Below are positions 41,923-55,329 of a stretch of 64,000 nucleotides of DNA, piece after piece. The number at the start of each line of letters is the position of its first letter. Positions within the stretch are counted from its first letter, which is position 1. The stretch covers positions 372,001 through 436,000 of the forward strand of contig NZ_JAXIVS010000008.1 of NCBI RefSeq assembly GCF_034259325.1. Direction: 5' to 3'. The notes under the pieces were generated by a model. That model ran no database searches. It was not told where the DNA came from and saw nothing but the letters and a program-made list of their open reading frames with translations. Both the position numbers and the translations under genes were made by a program. The stretch is from Hyalangium ruber. GTDB lineage: Bacteria; Myxococcota; Myxococcia; Myxococcales; Myxococcaceae.

Positions 41923-43980
41923 ATGTCGCTCAAGAAGTTGAAGGCTGTACCCGGCACCACGTGGATGGCCATGGCCGGCCTCCTGCTCACCGCCTGTAAC
42001 CCCGAGGCAGGACAGCCGGAGACGCGTCCGGCCTGGAGTGACCCCGAGAGCGCCTGGGTCTCTGCCGACGCGCCCGTGCGCGAGGGCTATATCTGGAACG
42101 GAGCCCGGGAGCGGTTCGAGGCGGTGCGCTACGCCGACGTGGATGGGATGGCCGTGCTGGAGGGCGACATCTTGCTGGGGAGTGTGGAGCAGGTGGAGGC
42201 ACTCACCCGCGAGGTCCAGGCCCAGGGAGGGCCCCAGTCCCAAGGAGTGCGGGCGCAAGGCGTGGCCATCAGCGGCGCGTTCTACAGGTGGCCTGATGCG
42301 GTGGTGCCGTACACCATCAACCCGAACCTCCCCAGCCAGAACCGGGTGACGGACGCCATCGCCCACTGGCAGTCGAAGACGCAACTGCGCTTCGTACTGC
42401 GAACGGCGAGCAATGCGGCGATCTACCCGAACTACGTCACCTTCCAGCCCGGCGACGGGTGCAACTCGTGGGTGGGAATGCAAGGCGGCCAGCAGGCCAT
42501 CAACCTGGCGGCCAATTGCTCCACGGGCAGCACCATCCATGAAATCGGCCACGCCATCGGTCTGTGGCACGAGCAGAGCCGCGAGGACCGCGACGCCCAC
42601 GTGCGCATCCGGTGGGAGAACATCCAGGCCGGCTACGCGCACAACTTCGACAAGCAGGTCAGCAATGGCGAGGATGTGTTCGGCTACGACTTCGACTCCA
42701 TCATGCACTACGGGGCCTACGCGTTCTCCGCCAATGGGCAGCCCACCCTCGAGACGCTGGGGGGCCAGTCCATCGGCCAGCGCAACGGGTTGAGCAACAC
42801 GGACGTGAACGCCTCCATCAAGCTGTACTCGCGGCAGATTCTGGTCAACGAGGCCATTCCGCACTTCCAGAGTTGGGCTGCGGAGACCCGCGCGGTGGTG
42901 ACAGGCGACTTCAATGGAGATGGGCGGACGGACATCGCGGCGGTGGGCGCTGGCGGCTGGTCGAACTTGCCCGTAGCGCTCTCCAACGGCAATGGCTCCT
43001 TCCGCCTGGTGAACGAGGGCATCCCTTACTTCCAGAGCTGGGCTGCGGAGACCCGTACGGTGGTGACGGGCGACTTCAATGGGGATGGGCGGACAGACAT
43101 CGCGGCGGTAGGCGCTGGCGGCTGGTCGGGCTTGCCCGTAGCACTCTCCAACGGCAATGGCTCCTTCCGTCTGGTGAATGAGGGCATCCCGTACTTCCAG
43201 AGCTGGGCTGCGGAGACCCGTACGGTGGTGACAGGCGACTTCAATGGGGATGGGTGGACGGACATCGCGGCGGTGGGCGCTGGCGGCTGGTCGGGCTTGC
43301 CCGTAGCGCTCTCCAACGGCAATGGCTCCTTCCGCCTGGTGAACGAGGGCATCCCTTACTTCCAGAGCTGGGCTGCGGAGACCCGTACGGTGGTGACAGG
43401 CGACTTCAATGGAGATGGGCGGACGGACATCGCGGCGGTGGGCGCTGGCGGCTGGTCGGGCTTGCCCGTAGCACTCTCCAACGGCAATGGCTCCTTCCGC
43501 CTGGTGAATGAGGGCATCCCTTACTTCCAGAGCTGGGCTGCGGAGACCCGTACAGTGGTGACGGGCGACTTCAATGGGGATGGGCGGACGGACCTCGCAG
43601 CGGTGGGCGCCAACGGCTGGTCGGGCTTGCCCGTAGCGCTCTCCAACGGCAATGGCTCCTTCCAGTTGGTCAACGAGGGCATTCCTCACTTCCAAACCCA
43701 GGCCGCTGCGACGCGTACGGTGGTGACAGGCGACTTCAATGGAGATGGGCGGACGGACATCGCGGCCGTGGGTGCTGACGGCTGGGGAGCCTTGCCCATG
43801 GCGATCTCCAACGGCAATGGTTCCTTCCGCTCGCCCAATGAGTACATCCCGTACTTCCAGAGCTGGGCCTCGGCGACACGTACAGTGGTAACAGGCGACT
43901 TCAATGGAGATGGGCGGACGGACCTCGCGGCGGTGGGCGCTGGTGGATGGGCGGCCGTGCCCGTAGCGCTCATCTACTGA
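41923..43980 (+). CDS. Astacin-like M12A metalloprotease lipoprotein with FG-GAP/VCBS repeats
   Basis: The product is 685 residues from the ATG at 41923. A signal and lipobox (GLLLTAC, Cys25) and a pro-region precede an astacin catalytic domain at about residues 115-310: the zinc site HEIGHAIGLWHEQSREDRD starts at His206, and SIMHYGAYAFS supplies the Met-turn with the Tyr ligand. Residues 328 to the end hold seven units of 55 residues, each with GDFNGDGRTD (Ca-binding D-x-D-G-x2-D) and LPVALSNGNGSF, fitting a seven-bladed propeller. Extracellular, surface-bound protease; the repeats may bind glycans or cells. Confidence 0.9.
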   Translation: MSLKKLKAVPGTTWMAMAGLLLTACNPEAGQPETRPAWSDPESAWVSADAPVREGYIWNGARERFEAVRYADVDGMAVLEGDILLGSVEQVEALTREVQAQGGPQSQGVRAQGVAISGAFYRWPDAVVPYTINPNLPSQNRVTDAIAHWQSKTQLRFVLRTASNAAIYPNYVTFQPGDGCNSWVGMQGGQQAINLAANCSTGSTIHEIGHAIGLWHEQSREDRDAHVRIRWENIQAGYAHNFDKQVSNGEDVFGYDFDSIMHYGAYAFSANGQPTLETLGGQSIGQRNGLSNTDVNASIKLYSRQILVNEAIPHFQSWAAETRAVVTGDFNGDGRTDIAAVGAGGWSNLPVALSNGNGSFRLVNEGIPYFQSWAAETRTVVTGDFNGDGRTDIAAVGAGGWSGLPVALSNGNGSFRLVNEGIPYFQSWAAETRTVVTGDFNGDGWTDIAAVGAGGWSGLPVALSNGNGSFRLVNEGIPYFQSWAAETRTVVTGDFNGDGRTDIAAVGAGGWSGLPVALSNGNGSFRLVNEGIPYFQSWAAETRTVVTGDFNGDGRTDLAAVGANGWSGLPVALSNGNGSFQLVNEGIPHFQTQAAATRTVVTGDFNGDGRTDIAAVGADGWGALPMAISNGNGSFRSPNEYIPYFQSWASATRTVVTGDFNGDGRTDLAAVGAGGWAAVPVALIY
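42904..43980 (+). repeat. Seven near-identical 165-bp tandem repeats
   Basis: The codons for GDFNGDG begin at 42904, 43069, 43234, 43399, 43564, 43729 and 43894, so the period is exactly 165 bases; the last unit is partial. The first five units differ at only a few bases each, while the last two are more diverged. One unit (43234) reads GDGWTD instead of GDGRTD. Such uniformity points to recent expansion or gene conversion. Confidence 0.9.
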
Positions 43981-49536: not shown

Positions 49537-51345
49537 TCAAGCAACGCGGTCGCGACGACGGCGGCGGCGCAGCACCCAGATGCCGCAGACGGCCATCCAC
49601 ACGCTGATAGCCTGGGCGGGGCCCGATTCGCAGTTGCAGCCTGCGGGAGCGCCCGCGTCGACTTCGTCTTCGTCTTCTCCCGGTCCCTCACCTTCGCCTC
49701 CGCCTCCGCCCTCAGCGGGCGGTGGTGGTGGTGGTGGTGGTGGTGGCGGCGGTGGTGGTGGCAGCGGCGGTGTTCCGCTCGCCACGGGCAAGGTGACTAC
49801 GCTTGGGTGCGCCGGGTCCGTGTAGATGGAGAGCGTCGTCGTCACGGGTGTCGGCGACGAGGACAGCGGCTCGGCGACGTTTGGATTCACCTCATAGTGC
49901 GGCGAGTTCGTCCCGCTGATCGCCACGCGGAGGCTGTGGCCAGCCTTCACCCGCACGGCAACCGGACCCAGGTCGAGCTCGAACGGGACAGGTACTCCCG
50001 GCGTGAGCGGCGTAATCACAGACGGATCTGCGACGAAGCGCCCACGGCGCACGCCGTCGGTGAGCAGGATCGACTTGCCACTCGGCGCGACCTGCGTCAG
50101 TCGCACGACGACGTCGACATCCGCAGTGGCGCTTGCAGCGTAGATCCGGGCCTTGGGGTTGCCGATGATCTCGTAGTCAGAAGTTCCCGGCGCAGTGGTG
50201 ATCGTCAGCACATCGCCGCGCGCATCGATCGCCGACTGATCGCGAGGACCATCCGCCACGGAGAGGTTCGACCCGCCCACGGTCGGCACCGGGTTCGAAG
50301 GATCGACGGTCAACGTCGTGACGGCTTGCGCAGCGGTGAGATACCAGGGCGTCAGGACACTCCCCGGAGGCGGCCATAGCGTGCCCTGTCGCCACTCTCC
50401 GGTCGCGGCCACACCGTCATCGCTGATCTGCGTGACGAAGTAGCGCAGCGACGGCCACGTGGGCGTTCCCTTCCCTTTGAGGCAATGGTTGAAGAACGCG
50501 AGGTTGTCGTCCGTCGGCGCGGCCACGTTTGCGTAGGCGAGCTCACCGACCGGAGTCTGCGCGTCGCCGTGCGTCCAGGGGCCGAGCACCAGTGTGTGAC
50601 CGGAGCCCGGCGCCGAGTCCGTCACGTAGTGCGAGAATGCCGCTGTTTGCTGCAGCGCGAAGACGTCGAAGAACCCTGACGTCATGTACACGCGAGCGCG
50701 AATTCGGCTGCGCTCGGTCGCATCGACGATCACCGGGTCCCAGTAGCTGCTCTTGGCTTCGTGGGCGCGCCAGGCGGCGAGTGTCGTCGGCGTCGGAAAG
50801 CCGTTGAGCCAAGACGTCGTCAACTCGGCTCGCCAGGCGCCTCCTGGCATGAGCGATTCATACAGGTTGTCGGAGGCATTCTGTACGTGGGCACAGCGCA
50901 GCGAATCCGGCGCATCTGGGAGCGCCAGGAGCTGCACGATGCCCTCGGCGGAGGCGCCGAAGGAGCCGATGTTGCCGTCGCACCAGGCTTGTTGCTCGAT
51001 CCAGCGCATCGTCGCCGGACCATCCACGGCATCGGTAAAGAAGGGCAGGAACGTCCCCTCGGATCCTCCCCGCCCGCGCACGTCCTGGGAGACGACGATG
51101 TAGCCGTTCAGATCCGCCAGGTTCCACACGAGGAGCGATTGGGGGAACGGAAACCCGCGGCCGTAGGGCGTGCGACGAAGGATGACCGGGCGCGGCCCAG
51201 GAAATTGCGCCGGATCCGGCCTCCAAATATCCGTCATCAGCCTCGTGCCATCTGGCATCGGGACCATCACCTCGGTCTTCGTTGCCGCGAGCGCGGTCTG
51301 CGCGCACATGACGAAGATGAGGACAAGAAGGGGGGTGCGCATCAT
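49537..51345 (-). CDS. CocE/NonD family hydrolase (S15-type) with MYXO-CTERM-like tail
   Basis: The product is 602 residues from the first of two ATGs at 51345. It has a signal peptide (LLVLIFVMCAQTALA), then an alpha/beta hydrolase of the X-Pro dipeptidyl-peptidase type: MPDGTRLMTDIW, VVSQDVRGRGGSEG, the nucleophile region GSFGASAEG, and LVLGPWTHGD near the catalytic His. A jelly-roll-like C-domain follows. The end has a run of about 14 prolines, a Gly/Glu-rich stretch, then GCNCESG, a helix (AISVWMAVCGIWVL) and RRRRRR. That matches MYXO-CTERM tags, so the enzyme is probably surface-anchored. Confidence 0.87.
   Translation of the reverse strand: MMRTPLLVLIFVMCAQTALAATKTEVMVPMPDGTRLMTDIWRPDPAQFPGPRPVILRRTPYGRGFPFPQSLLVWNLADLNGYIVVSQDVRGRGGSEGTFLPFFTDAVDGPATMRWIEQQAWCDGNIGSFGASAEGIVQLLALPDAPDSLRCAHVQNASDNLYESLMPGGAWRAELTTSWLNGFPTPTTLAAWRAHEAKSSYWDPVIVDATERSRIRARVYMTSGFFDVFALQQTAAFSHYVTDSAPGSGHTLVLGPWTHGDAQTPVGELAYANVAAPTDDNLAFFNHCLKGKGTPTWPSLRYFVTQISDDGVAATGEWRQGTLWPPPGSVLTPWYLTAAQAVTTLTVDPSNPVPTVGGSNLSVADGPRDQSAIDARGDVLTITTAPGTSDYEIIGNPKARIYAASATADVDVVVRLTQVAPSGKSILLTDGVRRGRFVADPSVITPLTPGVPVPFELDLGPVAVRVKAGHSLRVAISGTNSPHYEVNPNVAEPLSSSPTPVTTTLSIYTDPAHPSVVTLPVASGTPPLPPPPPPPPPPPPPPPAEGGGGGEGEGPGEDEDEVDAGAPAGCNCESGPAQAISVWMAVCGIWVLRRRRRRDRVA
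49718..49772. repeat. Interrupted GGT trinucleotide tract
   Basis: A run of GGT/GGC triplets encodes, on the minus strand, the poly-proline linker of the CocE/NonD hydrolase. About nine uninterrupted GGT units are followed by mixed ones. Slippage could vary linker length between strains. Confidence 0.8.
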
Positions 51346-51472
51346 CGCTGGCCGGCCATCTGCTTGTTGAAGACGGACATGTGCCCCTCCTGGGGTTGCC
51401 ACGAACTTTGACCAACTTCCCGCGGAGTGTACACGCGTCCGGGCTCCGCTCTGGGTGGGCTCGTCTGGCTCC

Positions 51473-51503
51473 GGATGCACTCGGCCCGTGAATCGCGCCC
51501 GAT
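51473..51503. repeat. 31-bp direct repeat, left copy
   Basis: This 31-base stretch beginning GGATGCACTCGG and ending CCCGAT recurs at 52609-52639 with one mismatch (GCGCCC against GCTCCC). It lies just after the stop of the gene at 51508-52506. The two copies thus bracket that one gene. Confidence 0.85.
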
Positions 51504-51507
51504 GGGG

Positions 51508-52506
51508 CTACTTCCTCACGTAGACCTCGCTCTCCACGTTCGGCGAGAAGGACCACGTGGGCTCGGACTGAAGCAGCAGCACTTGCTGTCCGTCGGGGCC
51601 ACGGGGGGCTCCGGTGATGAAGTACCTGTGCGCGTACTTCTCGCCGGTGAGCACCAGCAGGTCATGCTCTACCTTCCACCGGCCCTGGTCCTTGTCGGTG
51701 GCGAACTGGATGGCGCCCACTTGCCCAGAGCCGCCGGTGAACGCGTATGTGTAGGTGTGGTCGTCGTTGAAGGTGAAGTCGACGGCGCGTGCCACCGCGG
51801 TCATCGAGGTCGCTCCCGTGACGGTGTTGATCCACTGCGCGGTGTTGGTGTCGCCGAACACGAAGTGGCCGGTCACCTCGTCATCCGAGACGAGCGGCCC
51901 GCCCGTGGGGCTGCCCTGGACCGTGGCGAGCAGCTCCTCGACGAAGGCGTGCGTCTTCGGGAACGAGAAGCTGATGATCATCTGCGAGCCCATCGCCGTG
52001 GTGTCGCAGCCCTGCACGACGAGGAACGGCTCGAGGCGCTCATCGGCCTCGACGAGGTAGAGGCTCACCATCACCGGTTCGGGGTTTCCAGGTCGCAGCA
52101 GCCGCGCGCGGCCGAAGTACGCCCGGGCGCCGTTGGACACGAAGCGGCGCTGCACCAGCGGTGCGTGGACCTGCTCGTAGGCGCCGCTGAGCAGCTTTCG
52201 CCACTGCGCGGAGAGCTTCTCCTCGGCGCCCTCGAGCCCCGCAAGGGGGGGCAGCCGCCTCACTTCGACCCAGTACACCTCGGTGTCGTCACGCTGCTCG
52301 CGACGCCAGCGGTCCTCGCCCACCTTTTGGAACGACGAGGGGGGCGCGAAGGTGAAGCCCGCGCCCCCGCTCGTGCGCATTCCCGCCGCTGGGGTCGTCT
52401 CTTCGCCACCCACCAGTCCGAGCACCAGGGTGCCGAAGCAGCAGGTGAAGGTAAGACCGACGAGTGCCGCCGTTACTGCGAGGGTGATCTTCACGCCCTT
52501 CGTCAT
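51508..52506 (-). CDS. Membrane-anchored protein of unknown function, bracketed by direct repeats
   Basis: The 332-residue product has one N-terminal membrane helix (VKITLAVTAALVGLTFTCCFGTLVL) and an outside-facing body. Near residues 50-130 comes FTFAPPSSFQKVGEDRWRRE, like a PsbP/DUF-type lipoprotein domain with amphipathic strands. The C-terminal third has DFTFNDDHTYTYAFTGG and GRWKVEHDLLVLTG, which looks like a lipocalin-like beta barrel. No family could be named. The gene is inserted between a hydrolase gene and ppc, and 31-base direct repeats flank it. Confidence 0.7.
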   Translation of the reverse strand: MTKGVKITLAVTAALVGLTFTCCFGTLVLGLVGGEETTPAAGMRTSGGAGFTFAPPSSFQKVGEDRWRREQRDDTEVYWVEVRRLPPLAGLEGAEEKLSAQWRKLLSGAYEQVHAPLVQRRFVSNGARAYFGRARLLRPGNPEPVMVSLYLVEADERLEPFLVVQGCDTTAMGSQMIISFSFPKTHAFVEELLATVQGSPTGGPLVSDDEVTGHFVFGDTNTAQWINTVTGATSMTAVARAVDFTFNDDHTYTYAFTGGSGQVGAIQFATDKDQGRWKVEHDLLVLTGEKYAHRYFITGAPRGPDGQQVLLLQSEPTWSFSPNVESEVYVRK

Positions 52507-52608
52507 GGCCGGACCCTATGGCAAGGCTCTCGGCTCCCTCAACTCCTCATCGCGCGAGCGGTCCTACTCGCTGGACACCCGCAGGGCCCGGCTATTTGAC
52601 GCGGACCA

Positions 52609-52639
52609 GGATGCACTCGGCCCGTGAATCGCTCCCGAT
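52609..52639. repeat. 31-bp direct repeat, right copy
   Basis: This is the second copy of the repeat at 51473-51503 (30 of 31 bases the same). It lies in the leader of ppc, ending 20 bases before the start codon. This copy includes most of an inverted repeat listed separately. Confidence 0.85.
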
Positions 52640-52642
52640 TCA
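52625..52642. promoter_or_regulatory. Inverted repeat in the ppc leader
   Basis: TGAATCG-CTCC-CGATTCA has perfect 7-base arms with a 4-base spacer and ends 17 bases before the ppc ATG. It could be an operator or an RNA hairpin near the ribosome site. The left copy of the 31-base repeat keeps only part of this symmetry (arms reduced to four bases). Confidence 0.45.
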
Positions 52643-52659
52643 GATAGAGTCCCGCCGCC

Positions 52660-55329
52660 ATGGCGCGTCTGTCTTCCGTCGATCCACCCCTCCGCCGCGA
52701 TGTCCGCCTCCTGGGCCGGCTGCTCGGTGAAGTCCTCATCGAGCAGCAAGGGCAGGCTTTGTTTGATCTGGAGGAGCAGGTCCGGCACCTCTCCATCCAG
52801 CGCCGCCGAGGCCCCAAACCGGGGCGCCGCGCCACCGCGGGCGAGCTCGCCGCGCTGCTGCGAGACCTCCCCCTGGAGCAGGCCGAGCCGGTGCTGCGCG
52901 CCTTCTCCGTCTACTTCCAGCTCGTCAACCTCGCCGAGCAGCACCACCGCATCCGCCGCACCCGCGCCCATGCCAGCGATCCGGAGGCCTTGCCCCAGCG
53001 TGGCTCCCTGGAGGCCGCGTTCCAGAAGCTGAAGGAAGCGGGCGTCCCCGCCGAGCGTGTGCGCGAGGCCCTGCGCACCATGCACGTGACGCTGACGCTC
53101 ACCGCGCACCCCACGCAGGCGGCGCGCCGCACGCTGCTGGAGAAGCTCTACCGCATTCAGCGCCTGCTCGAGGAGCGCGACCGCTGCTCGCTCACGCCCC
53201 AGGAGATGGCCGACAACCTGGAGTCCATGCGCGAGGAGATCACCGCCCTCTGGCAGTCGGACGAGCTGCGGCGCATGAAGCCCACCGTGGGCGACGAGGT
53301 GAAGAACGTCCTCTGGTACGTGGAGGAGGTGCTCGCCGAGCAGCTCGCGCGGCTCCCGGAGGTGATCGCCTGGGCCTTCGAGCATGCCTACGCGGAGCCG
53401 CTGGGTCCCATCGCCTCGCCCGCGCGGCTGCACTCGTGGGTGGGCGGGGACATGGACGGCAACCCGCTGGTGACGCCCGAGGTGTTGGCCGACACGCTGC
53501 GCGCTCACCGGGCTCGTGGCCTGCGCATGTTGCTGCGCGACATCGAGTCCCTCGGTGTCAACCTGTCCCAGTCGGACCGCCACGCGACCACTCCTGAGGA
53601 GCTTCAGGCCTCGTTGGAGAAGGATGGGGCGCGGCTGCCCGAGGTGGCGCGGCGGCAGGGGCCGCGCACGGCGGGTGAGCCGTGGCGTCGCAAGCTGCGC
53701 TTCATGGAGGCTCGGCTTCAGCTGGCGCTCCGGTACGTGGAGGGCCAGCGCGTTGGGCGCACGGAGCCGATGGCGCCCGAGGCCTACCGCTCTCCCGCGG
53801 AGCTGCTGCAGGATCTGGAGCTCATCGAGCGCACGCTCCTGCAGGTGAAGTCGGCGCGCGCGGGAGTCCGGAACGTGCGGCGGGTGCTGGAGCGGGTGCG
53901 CGTCATGGGCTTCCATCTGGCGGAGCTGGAGTTCCGCGTGCCGGCCGAGGACGCCATCAGCGCCGCGGCCTCGCTCAATGGCGGGCCCGCGCCCTCGGAA
54001 GGGGGCGAGCGGCTGCTCGCGGTGCTGGAGCGGGTGCGCGAGGCCCAGACCGAGTCAGGCGAGGAGGCGTGCCGTACCTTCATCCTCTCCATGGCCAGCA
54101 CCGCGGACGATGTGCTGGCGGCCTTCCGGTGTGCGCGCCACGCGGGCCTCTGGGACGCGCAGCGCGGCTGCGCCACGGTGGACATCGTGCCGCTGTTCGA
54201 GCAGCTCGGCGCGCTGGATGACGGCCCGAAGGTGCTCGAGGCGCTCTTCGCAGACCCGGCCTACCGGCGTCACCTGCAAGCCCGAGGCGTGCAGGAGGTG
54301 ATGGTGGGCTACAGCGACTCGGGCAAGGAGGTGGGGCTGCTGGCCGCGGCCGCCGCGCTCTACCGGGCCCAGGTGGCGCTCAACCAGGTGGCGAAGGCGG
54401 CGGGGGTTCCCCTGCGCCTCTTCCACGGCCGAGGCGAGTCCGTGGCGCGCGGAGGAGGGCCCGCCCAGCAGGCCATCCTCGCGCTGCCTCCGGGCAGCCT
54501 GGTGGGCGGTTACAAGGCCACGGAGCAGGGTGAGGCGCTGGACCACAAGTACGCGCGGCCCGAGCTGGCGCGGCGCACGCTGGAGCTGGTGCTCGGCGGC
54601 GTGCTGCTGCACACGATGGACGCCCAGCCCCGGCCCTCCGAGGCGGACGAGGCGGCCTTCCGCGACATCTTCAACACGCTGGCGGAGACGGGCCGGCGCG
54701 AGTACCGCTCCCTGGTCTGGGAGGATCCGCGCTTCGTCGAGTTCTTCCTGGCGGCCACCCCCGTGGAGGAGATCTCCGCGCTGCCCATCGGCTCGCGTCC
54801 CAGCAAGCGCAAGGCGGGAGGGCTCGAGTCGCTGCGCGCCATCCCCTGGGTGTTCGCGTGGACGCAGAACCGGGCCATCCTGCCGGGCTGGTACGGCGTG
54901 GGCTCGGCGCTGGAGGCCTTCGTGGACAAGCCGGATGGCCTGGGGCGGCTCAAGCGCATGTACCGGGAGTGGCCCTTCTTCCGGACGGTCATCGACAACG
55001 TGACGATGGTGCTGGCCAAGAGCGACATCGCCATCGCCTCGCGCTACGCGACGCTGGCACCCGAGTCCACCCGGCCGCTGTGGCGCCGCATCCGCGCCGA
55101 GTACAAGCGCACGCGCCGCCTGGTGAAGCGGATTACGGGCGAGGCGCGGCTGTTGGACCACAACCCCCAGCTCCAGCGCTCCATCGCCCTGCGGAACCCC
55201 TACGTGGACCCCATGTCCTTCCTCCAGGTGGAGCTGCTGCGGCGCAAGCGCGCCGGCCAGGAGGAGGTGGATCGTCCGCTGCTCCTCACGCTCAACGGCA
55301 TCGCCGCGGGCATGCGCAACACGGGCTGA
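52660..55329 (+). CDS. ppc: Phosphoenolpyruvate carboxylase
   Basis: The 889-residue product is of normal length for the enzyme that turns PEP and bicarbonate into oxaloacetate and phosphate, refilling the TCA cycle. Signatures: [15 protein letters not shown] with the catalytic His150, [35 protein letters not shown], and the C-terminal end [18 protein letters not shown], followed by NTG at the very end. The N-terminal region before residue 100 is more diverged. The leader carries an inverted repeat, and a GNAT gene follows after five bases. Confidence 0.95.

Follow-up and report, generated by a model that had tools for sequence, protein, structure and literature searches.

Why does a single gene without a recognised family, lying directly ahead of the phosphoenolpyruvate carboxylase gene ppc in a myxobacterial genome, sit between two nearly identical copies of a 31-bp sequence? 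We examined this locus in a 64-kb stretch of DNA (the window), in the 10.77-Mb draft genome of 43 contigs to which it belongs and in 95 other genomes of the same family, none of them from the same genus. The locus looks like an ordinary insertion scar in a region where relatives carry different genes, and not like a new mobile element.

A direct repeat that brackets one gene

A repeat scan of the window bore out what an earlier note on this DNA had described: a 31-bp direct repeat whose two copies are identical at 30 of 31 positions and spaced 1136 bp apart (Table 1). The left copy reads GGATGCACTCGGCCCGTGAATCGCGCCCGAT, and the right copy differs from it at base 25, where G becomes T. Between them lies one gene, which we call Y332. 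Its stop codon is 4 bp from the left copy and its ATG 102 bp from the right copy, which in turn ends 20 bp ahead of the ppc start codon. The earlier note had correctly placed the right copy in the ppc leader; the unrecognised gene that it saw before the left copy is the bracketed Y332 itself. Under a simple independent-base model at 67.7% GC, 2e-7 chance pairs within 5 kb of each other are expected per 64 kb and 4e-5 per whole genome, and a chance origin of the pair is excluded for practical purposes.

An RNA element at the repeat was considered and dropped: Rfam gave no match at E up to 1 across 51000-53000, and the folds lay within the range of shuffled sequences (z from -0.98 to 0.75).

Table 1. 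Features at and around the repeat pair. Positions are those of the window unless the contig that contains it, C8, is named.
Feature	Position	Strand	Remarks
Helicase gene, DEAD/DEAH-box with DUF3516 domain	C8:365218-367755		Pfam; 4.2 kb before the window start
Helicase-ppc interval	C8:365218-424660 (window 1-52659 plus about 6.8 kb before)		74 bp to 56.9 kb where both genes were seen
Long array of 165-bp repeats	C8:414841-415900 (window about 42841-43900)		lies within a gene that has Astacin and FG-GAP-repeat domains
CocE/NonD family (peptidase S15) hydrolase	49537..51345	-	other neighbour, starts about 128 bp left of the left copy
Hydrolase leader	51346..51438	-	51351-51438 (88 bp) matches a Spo0M-family gene on contig C3 of the same genome, over its leader and first codons (81% identity)
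Left copy of the 31-bp direct repeat	51473..51503	+	4 bp past the Y332 stop codon
Y332, bracketed gene, 332 aa	51508..52506	-	ORF; hydrophobic N-terminal segment seen by eye in alignment
Spacer from the Y332 start to the right copy, 102 bp	52507..52608		presumed Y332 promoter region
Right copy of the 31-bp direct repeat	52609..52639	+	-51 to -21 of the ppc start codon
Perfect 7-bp dyad TGAATCG-CTCC-CGATTCA	52625..52642		runs 3 bp past the right copy
TAGAGT, -10-like hexamer	52645..52650	+	9 nt before the ppc start; place conserved
ppc, phosphoenolpyruvate carboxylase	52660..55329	+	conserved flank

The right copy in the ppc leader

The 47 family ppc loci (six Sorangium/Polyangium loci and L083, which has no upstream DNA, being excluded) gave 37 distinct leaders, the window's included. 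Of the 37, 36 carry a TANNNT hexamer that ends 7-11 nt ahead of the start codon; hexamers ending 13-42 nt before it occur in none, and one ending 1-6 nt before it in a single leader. The start codon of the sole exception, L063, is probably misplaced. This position suggests the -10 box of a ppc transcript whose 5' end would coincide with the start codon or lie beside it. It suggests that ppc of this family is transcribed with almost no 5' leader.

As the right copy ends just ahead of the window's hexamer, 5 bp from it, it would supply the presumed -35 region of ppc, and to judge by this placement it likely covers that region. By eye, no alignment between genera is apparent in the leaders upstream of the -10 box, and because this part of the leader is not conserved the duplication cannot be polarised, that is, neither copy can be called the older. 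A weak hint that the right copy is the original may lie in the perfect dyad found there alone, the left copy being without it; the 318 bp of non-coding sequence surrounding both copies would be expected to contain about 0.36 such dyads, and this one is possibly due to chance. A sigma-70-type promoter scan of 51300-52720 returned none.

A variable interval between a helicase gene and ppc

Of 27 related regions, two same-contig pairs being counted once each, 15 have a helicase gene ahead of ppc and in the same orientation. The distance between the end of the helicase match and ppc is 74, 80, 88, 100, 693, 755, 755, 756 or 777 bp and, in the longer intervals, 1336, 1954, 2790, 3737, 5951 or 9795 bp. 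The corresponding distance in the window's own genome is 56,904 bp. The helicase was not seen in the other 12 regions within 2.7 to 12 kb upstream of ppc. Neither Y332 nor the hydrolase on the far side of the left copy was found before ppc in any of the 27 regions, within 2.4 to 12 kb per region, and a further comparison of 12 regions revealed no upstream gene in common with the window. On the downstream side of ppc the nearest relatives keep most of the gene order, except that a GNAT gene is missing in some. We regard the helicase-ppc interval as a place where unrelated genes accumulate and as a candidate hotspot of gene gain.

Y332 is the last gene of the variable block, with its repeats at the ppc edge, and no such repeat occurs at the far, helicase end of the block. 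The two ends of the block share a direct match of 12 bases (C8 368579 / 424599), which by our own estimate is at about chance level and was set aside. Among the 38 predicted window genes before ppc, Pfam gave no transposase, integrase or other recombinase, and no tRNA was found in the window.

These comparisons favour one of the two readings offered by the earlier note, the insertion of a single gene beside ppc: none of the 27 regions has Y332 or the hydrolase before ppc, and the helicase, near ppc in 15 of them, is here 56.9 kb away. The note had named the keeping of both repeats and the gene in all relatives as the outcome that would speak against its proposal. Y332 and the repeats are missing before ppc in relatives, so the pair is not kept in all of them, and that outcome did not occur among the 27 regions.

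Occurrence of the 31-bp sequence elsewhere

With up to 3 mismatches allowed, the 31-mer occurs only twice in the whole genome and its reversed control not at all. An 18-base core, with 3 mismatches allowed, matches nine places, two of them (the known copies) perfectly; because the reversed control gives 14, the remaining seven are background. Searched for in the 96 family genomes with up to 3 mismatches allowed, a 26-base core gave two matches in the window's own genome and one, with 3 mismatches, in G043, a genome without a ppc match; the reversed control also gave one match, in G034. The idea that the 31 bp is a family-wide element was rejected, its sole foreign match having 3 mismatches and equalling the reversed-control count. 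The sequence is absent from the ppc leaders of relatives, and an exact 19-base search of viral contigs with the repeat core found none. The kind of relative that the earlier note named as support for insertion or excision, with one copy, no Y332 and the hydrolase adjoining ppc, was not found among the 95 other family genomes, all of other genera.

To place the pair in its genomic setting, we scanned 858.5 kb, about 8% of the genome (458.5 kb of C8, window included, and 400 kb of C3), for direct repeats of at least 20 nt that lie 100-8000 bp apart. Fifteen pairs had both copies less than 40% inside predicted genes (the left 31-bp copy is 26% inside); gene prediction was rough, and several of the remaining pairs are probably located in repetitive coding sequence that escaped it. 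Predicted genes are bracketed by two of the 15, namely the 31-bp pair and a 47-nt pair, which adjoins longer repeats of the same 2.9-kb spacing and is therefore part of a larger duplication. Isolated gene-bracketing pairs are thus rare, with one in the sequence scanned, which argues for a single event.

Homologues of the bracketed gene

Attempts to assign Y332 to a known family or structure were given up: neither Pfam, searched as permissively as E 10, nor NCBIfam at E 0.1 gave a match, and a comparison with the PDB gave a single row at E 0.96, which is chance level and not a convincing match. A phage or plasmid origin was likewise rejected, as Y332 matched none of 72,556 plasmid and 50,697 phage records and its repeat core is missing from viral contigs too.

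Matches to Y332 occur patchily, in 25 of the 96 family genomes (its own included) and in 6 of 26 genera. Two of the 25 (G040 and G041) are weak or partial, and the main matches in the other genomes have 39-47% identity; in G094 a full-length match at 40% is accompanied by a partial one at 56%, which scores best. Of the main loci in the 22 other genomes we compared 18, each with flanks of up to about 5 kb per side. Seven of these (L160, L161, L162, L166, L167, L168 and L172) have neighbours in common, and L174 and L177 share their flanks. L163, L165 and L173 have no neighbouring gene in common with any other of the 18, and the remaining six have none in common with the four reference loci against which they were compared. 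L165 and L161 are 92% identical in nucleotide sequence over about 1.08 kb, which is the gene and little else; apart from one further 135-bp match just before the gene, their flanks are unrelated. Y332 thus occurs in several unrelated neighbourhoods across the family genomes.

Within 400 bp on either side, 17 of the 18 homologues have no near-exact flanking direct repeats, and the window gives the 31-bp pair; L177 has a weaker 20-nt pair with 2 mismatches, the downstream copy lying 307 bp past the stop codon. As the homologues are without comparable flanking repeats, the repeats do not, as far as seen, travel with the Y332 family. The other reading of the earlier note, a mobile cassette with duplicated ends, finds no support in these counts: two copies in the genome, one chance-level match in 95 others and 17 of 18 homologues without repeats.

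Origin of the repeat pair

With moderate confidence, we read the two repeats as the scar left by a one-off insertion into a variable region, at its ppc edge. DNA carrying Y332 would have entered a break beside the ppc promoter, and a 31-bp stretch at the break would have been copied to the far end by staggered-end fill-in or short-homology repair, a duplication by which ppc would have kept its -35 region intact. Illegitimate recombination or Ku-dependent end joining was probably responsible, with no dedicated element. The genome has two Ku genes, which make the end-joining route possible, not proven, since their presence is no sign of a part in this event. The variable interval, the bracketing of Y332 together with about 100 bp, the uniqueness of the repeat and the position of its right copy beside a conserved hexamer are seen directly, and the insertion itself we infer, because an empty site was not found. 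Identity at 30 of 31 positions, together with the non-aligning leaders of the nearest genera, suggests that the duplication arose only after the lineage had separated from the nearest genera sampled. Y332 could predate the repeats at the locus, because no close relative of it was found in the family genomes searched.

Two other accounts would not require a dedicated mobile element. In a Campbell-type integration, a circle or fragment with its own 31-bp copy would have recombined with a single copy before ppc and would likewise have left direct repeats at both ends; 31 bp is also near the lower length of about 30 bp that PMC2884548 gives as reported for RecA-dependent recombination in E. coli. 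We consider this unlikely, if the least unlikely of the alternatives, since it needs a prior independent copy and there is none elsewhere in the genome; the 95 other family genomes, carriers of Y332 included, give a single chance-level match, and the exact search of viral contigs gave none. The two copies might instead be putative binding sites of one regulator of ppc and the neighbouring genes, a repeat kept for its function. The position of the right copy relative to ppc and the perfect dyad that it forms with the next 3 bases are consistent with such a role, which we nevertheless find rather improbable: the left copy is without the dyad, neither the genome nor the ppc leaders of relatives hold a further copy, and a sharp 31-bp block of identity between unrelated flanks is unlike a degenerate operator.

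Accounts that call on mobile elements fare worse. Were the 31 bp the attL/attR cores of a site-specific gene cassette, with a recombinase acting in trans, one would expect what is seen here, a compact unit of one gene, bounded on either side by direct repeats and ending right after the stop codon; integron cassettes and pdif modules are similarly compact, with a short sequence at each end, and the attL/attR sites of phages and integrative and conjugative elements are direct repeats of tens of bases. Unlike the former, the site does not recur in the genome and there is no integrase among the window genes; unlike the latter, the unit has one gene only, with no recombinase between the repeats and no tRNA in the window. 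By eye, the repeat does not resemble the consensus of attC or of dif-type arms. With no recombinase-like Pfam match among the 38 predicted window genes before ppc, no plasmid or phage record that matches Y332 and no comparable repeats at the 18 homologues checked, we think a cassette distinctly improbable. It is highly doubtful that the 31 bp is the core site of a trans-acting recombinase that moves single genes and lands on the -35 region so that the target promoter works. More doubtful still is a transposon with a long target-site duplication: it would be a single unit bounded by direct repeats, as here, but the 1.1 kb between the copies has no transposase-like gene, the repeat scan found no inverted pair joining the two inner ends, as a transposon or insertion sequence would have, and 31 bp is longer than the target duplications known from transposons, about 2-14 bp. 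Lastly, a chance similarity or an assembly artefact can hardly be entertained, even in a draft of many contigs, given the expectation for the window stated above, the one-base difference between the copies and a repeat shorter than the reads of current sequencers.

The favoured reading, a one-off insertion, has a precedent. According to PMC2884548, direct repeats of 5 bp or longer flank 10-18% of variable segments in three species, 66-94% of those repeats are under 30 bp, and a large part of such diversity is attributed to illegitimate recombination. Like those segments, the present unit is about 1 kb, lies in a variable locus and has short direct repeats at its bounds, 31 bp being at the long end. 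That paper compares strains within species, whereas our comparison is between genera, and it ascribes some of the variation to deletion between repeats, whereas no empty site was found here. Between genera, the locus behaves as a variable segment, with helicase and ppc as the backbone and a gap of 74 bp to 56.9 kb; boundary repeats are present if Y332 alone is taken as the segment, the whole block having none at its far end. A review of myxobacterial genomics (PMC8538405) states that gene gain and loss in Myxococcus xanthus are faster than amino-acid change in core genes, and this fast turnover fits the insertion account. A literature search gave no title on such a repeat; the locus sequence was not used as a query, and subscription papers were mostly outside its scope.

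The locus is a further instance of the apparent growth of large myxobacterial genomes through the gathering of unrelated genes between conserved neighbours, and the short duplication may mark the junction of one acquired gene. More generally, gene gain in the family could be followed with the helicase-ppc interval as a marker locus.

The adjoining hydrolase gene

The hydrolase on the other side of the left copy is 93-94% identical to genes in G003, G073 and G005, which represent two other genera; all other family matches listed are at about 41% or less. Nucleotide homology to these three genomes stops near the ends of the hydrolase gene, and their ppc genes are only 77-78% identical. The difference between the two levels of identity makes a single-gene transfer likely, and the hydrolase is probably a separate acquisition.

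Most of the hydrolase leader matches the Spo0M-family gene on C3 (Table 1); no Spo0M match was seen in the other loci compared. The edge of the block thus seems to be made of at least three pieces of different origin: the hydrolase, a Spo0M-type leader and the Y332 unit. The leader keeps a ribosome-binding-like site, recognised by eye, together with a reading frame of 12 codons, MSVFNKQMAGQR, which ends in a stop codon overlapping the hydrolase ATG.
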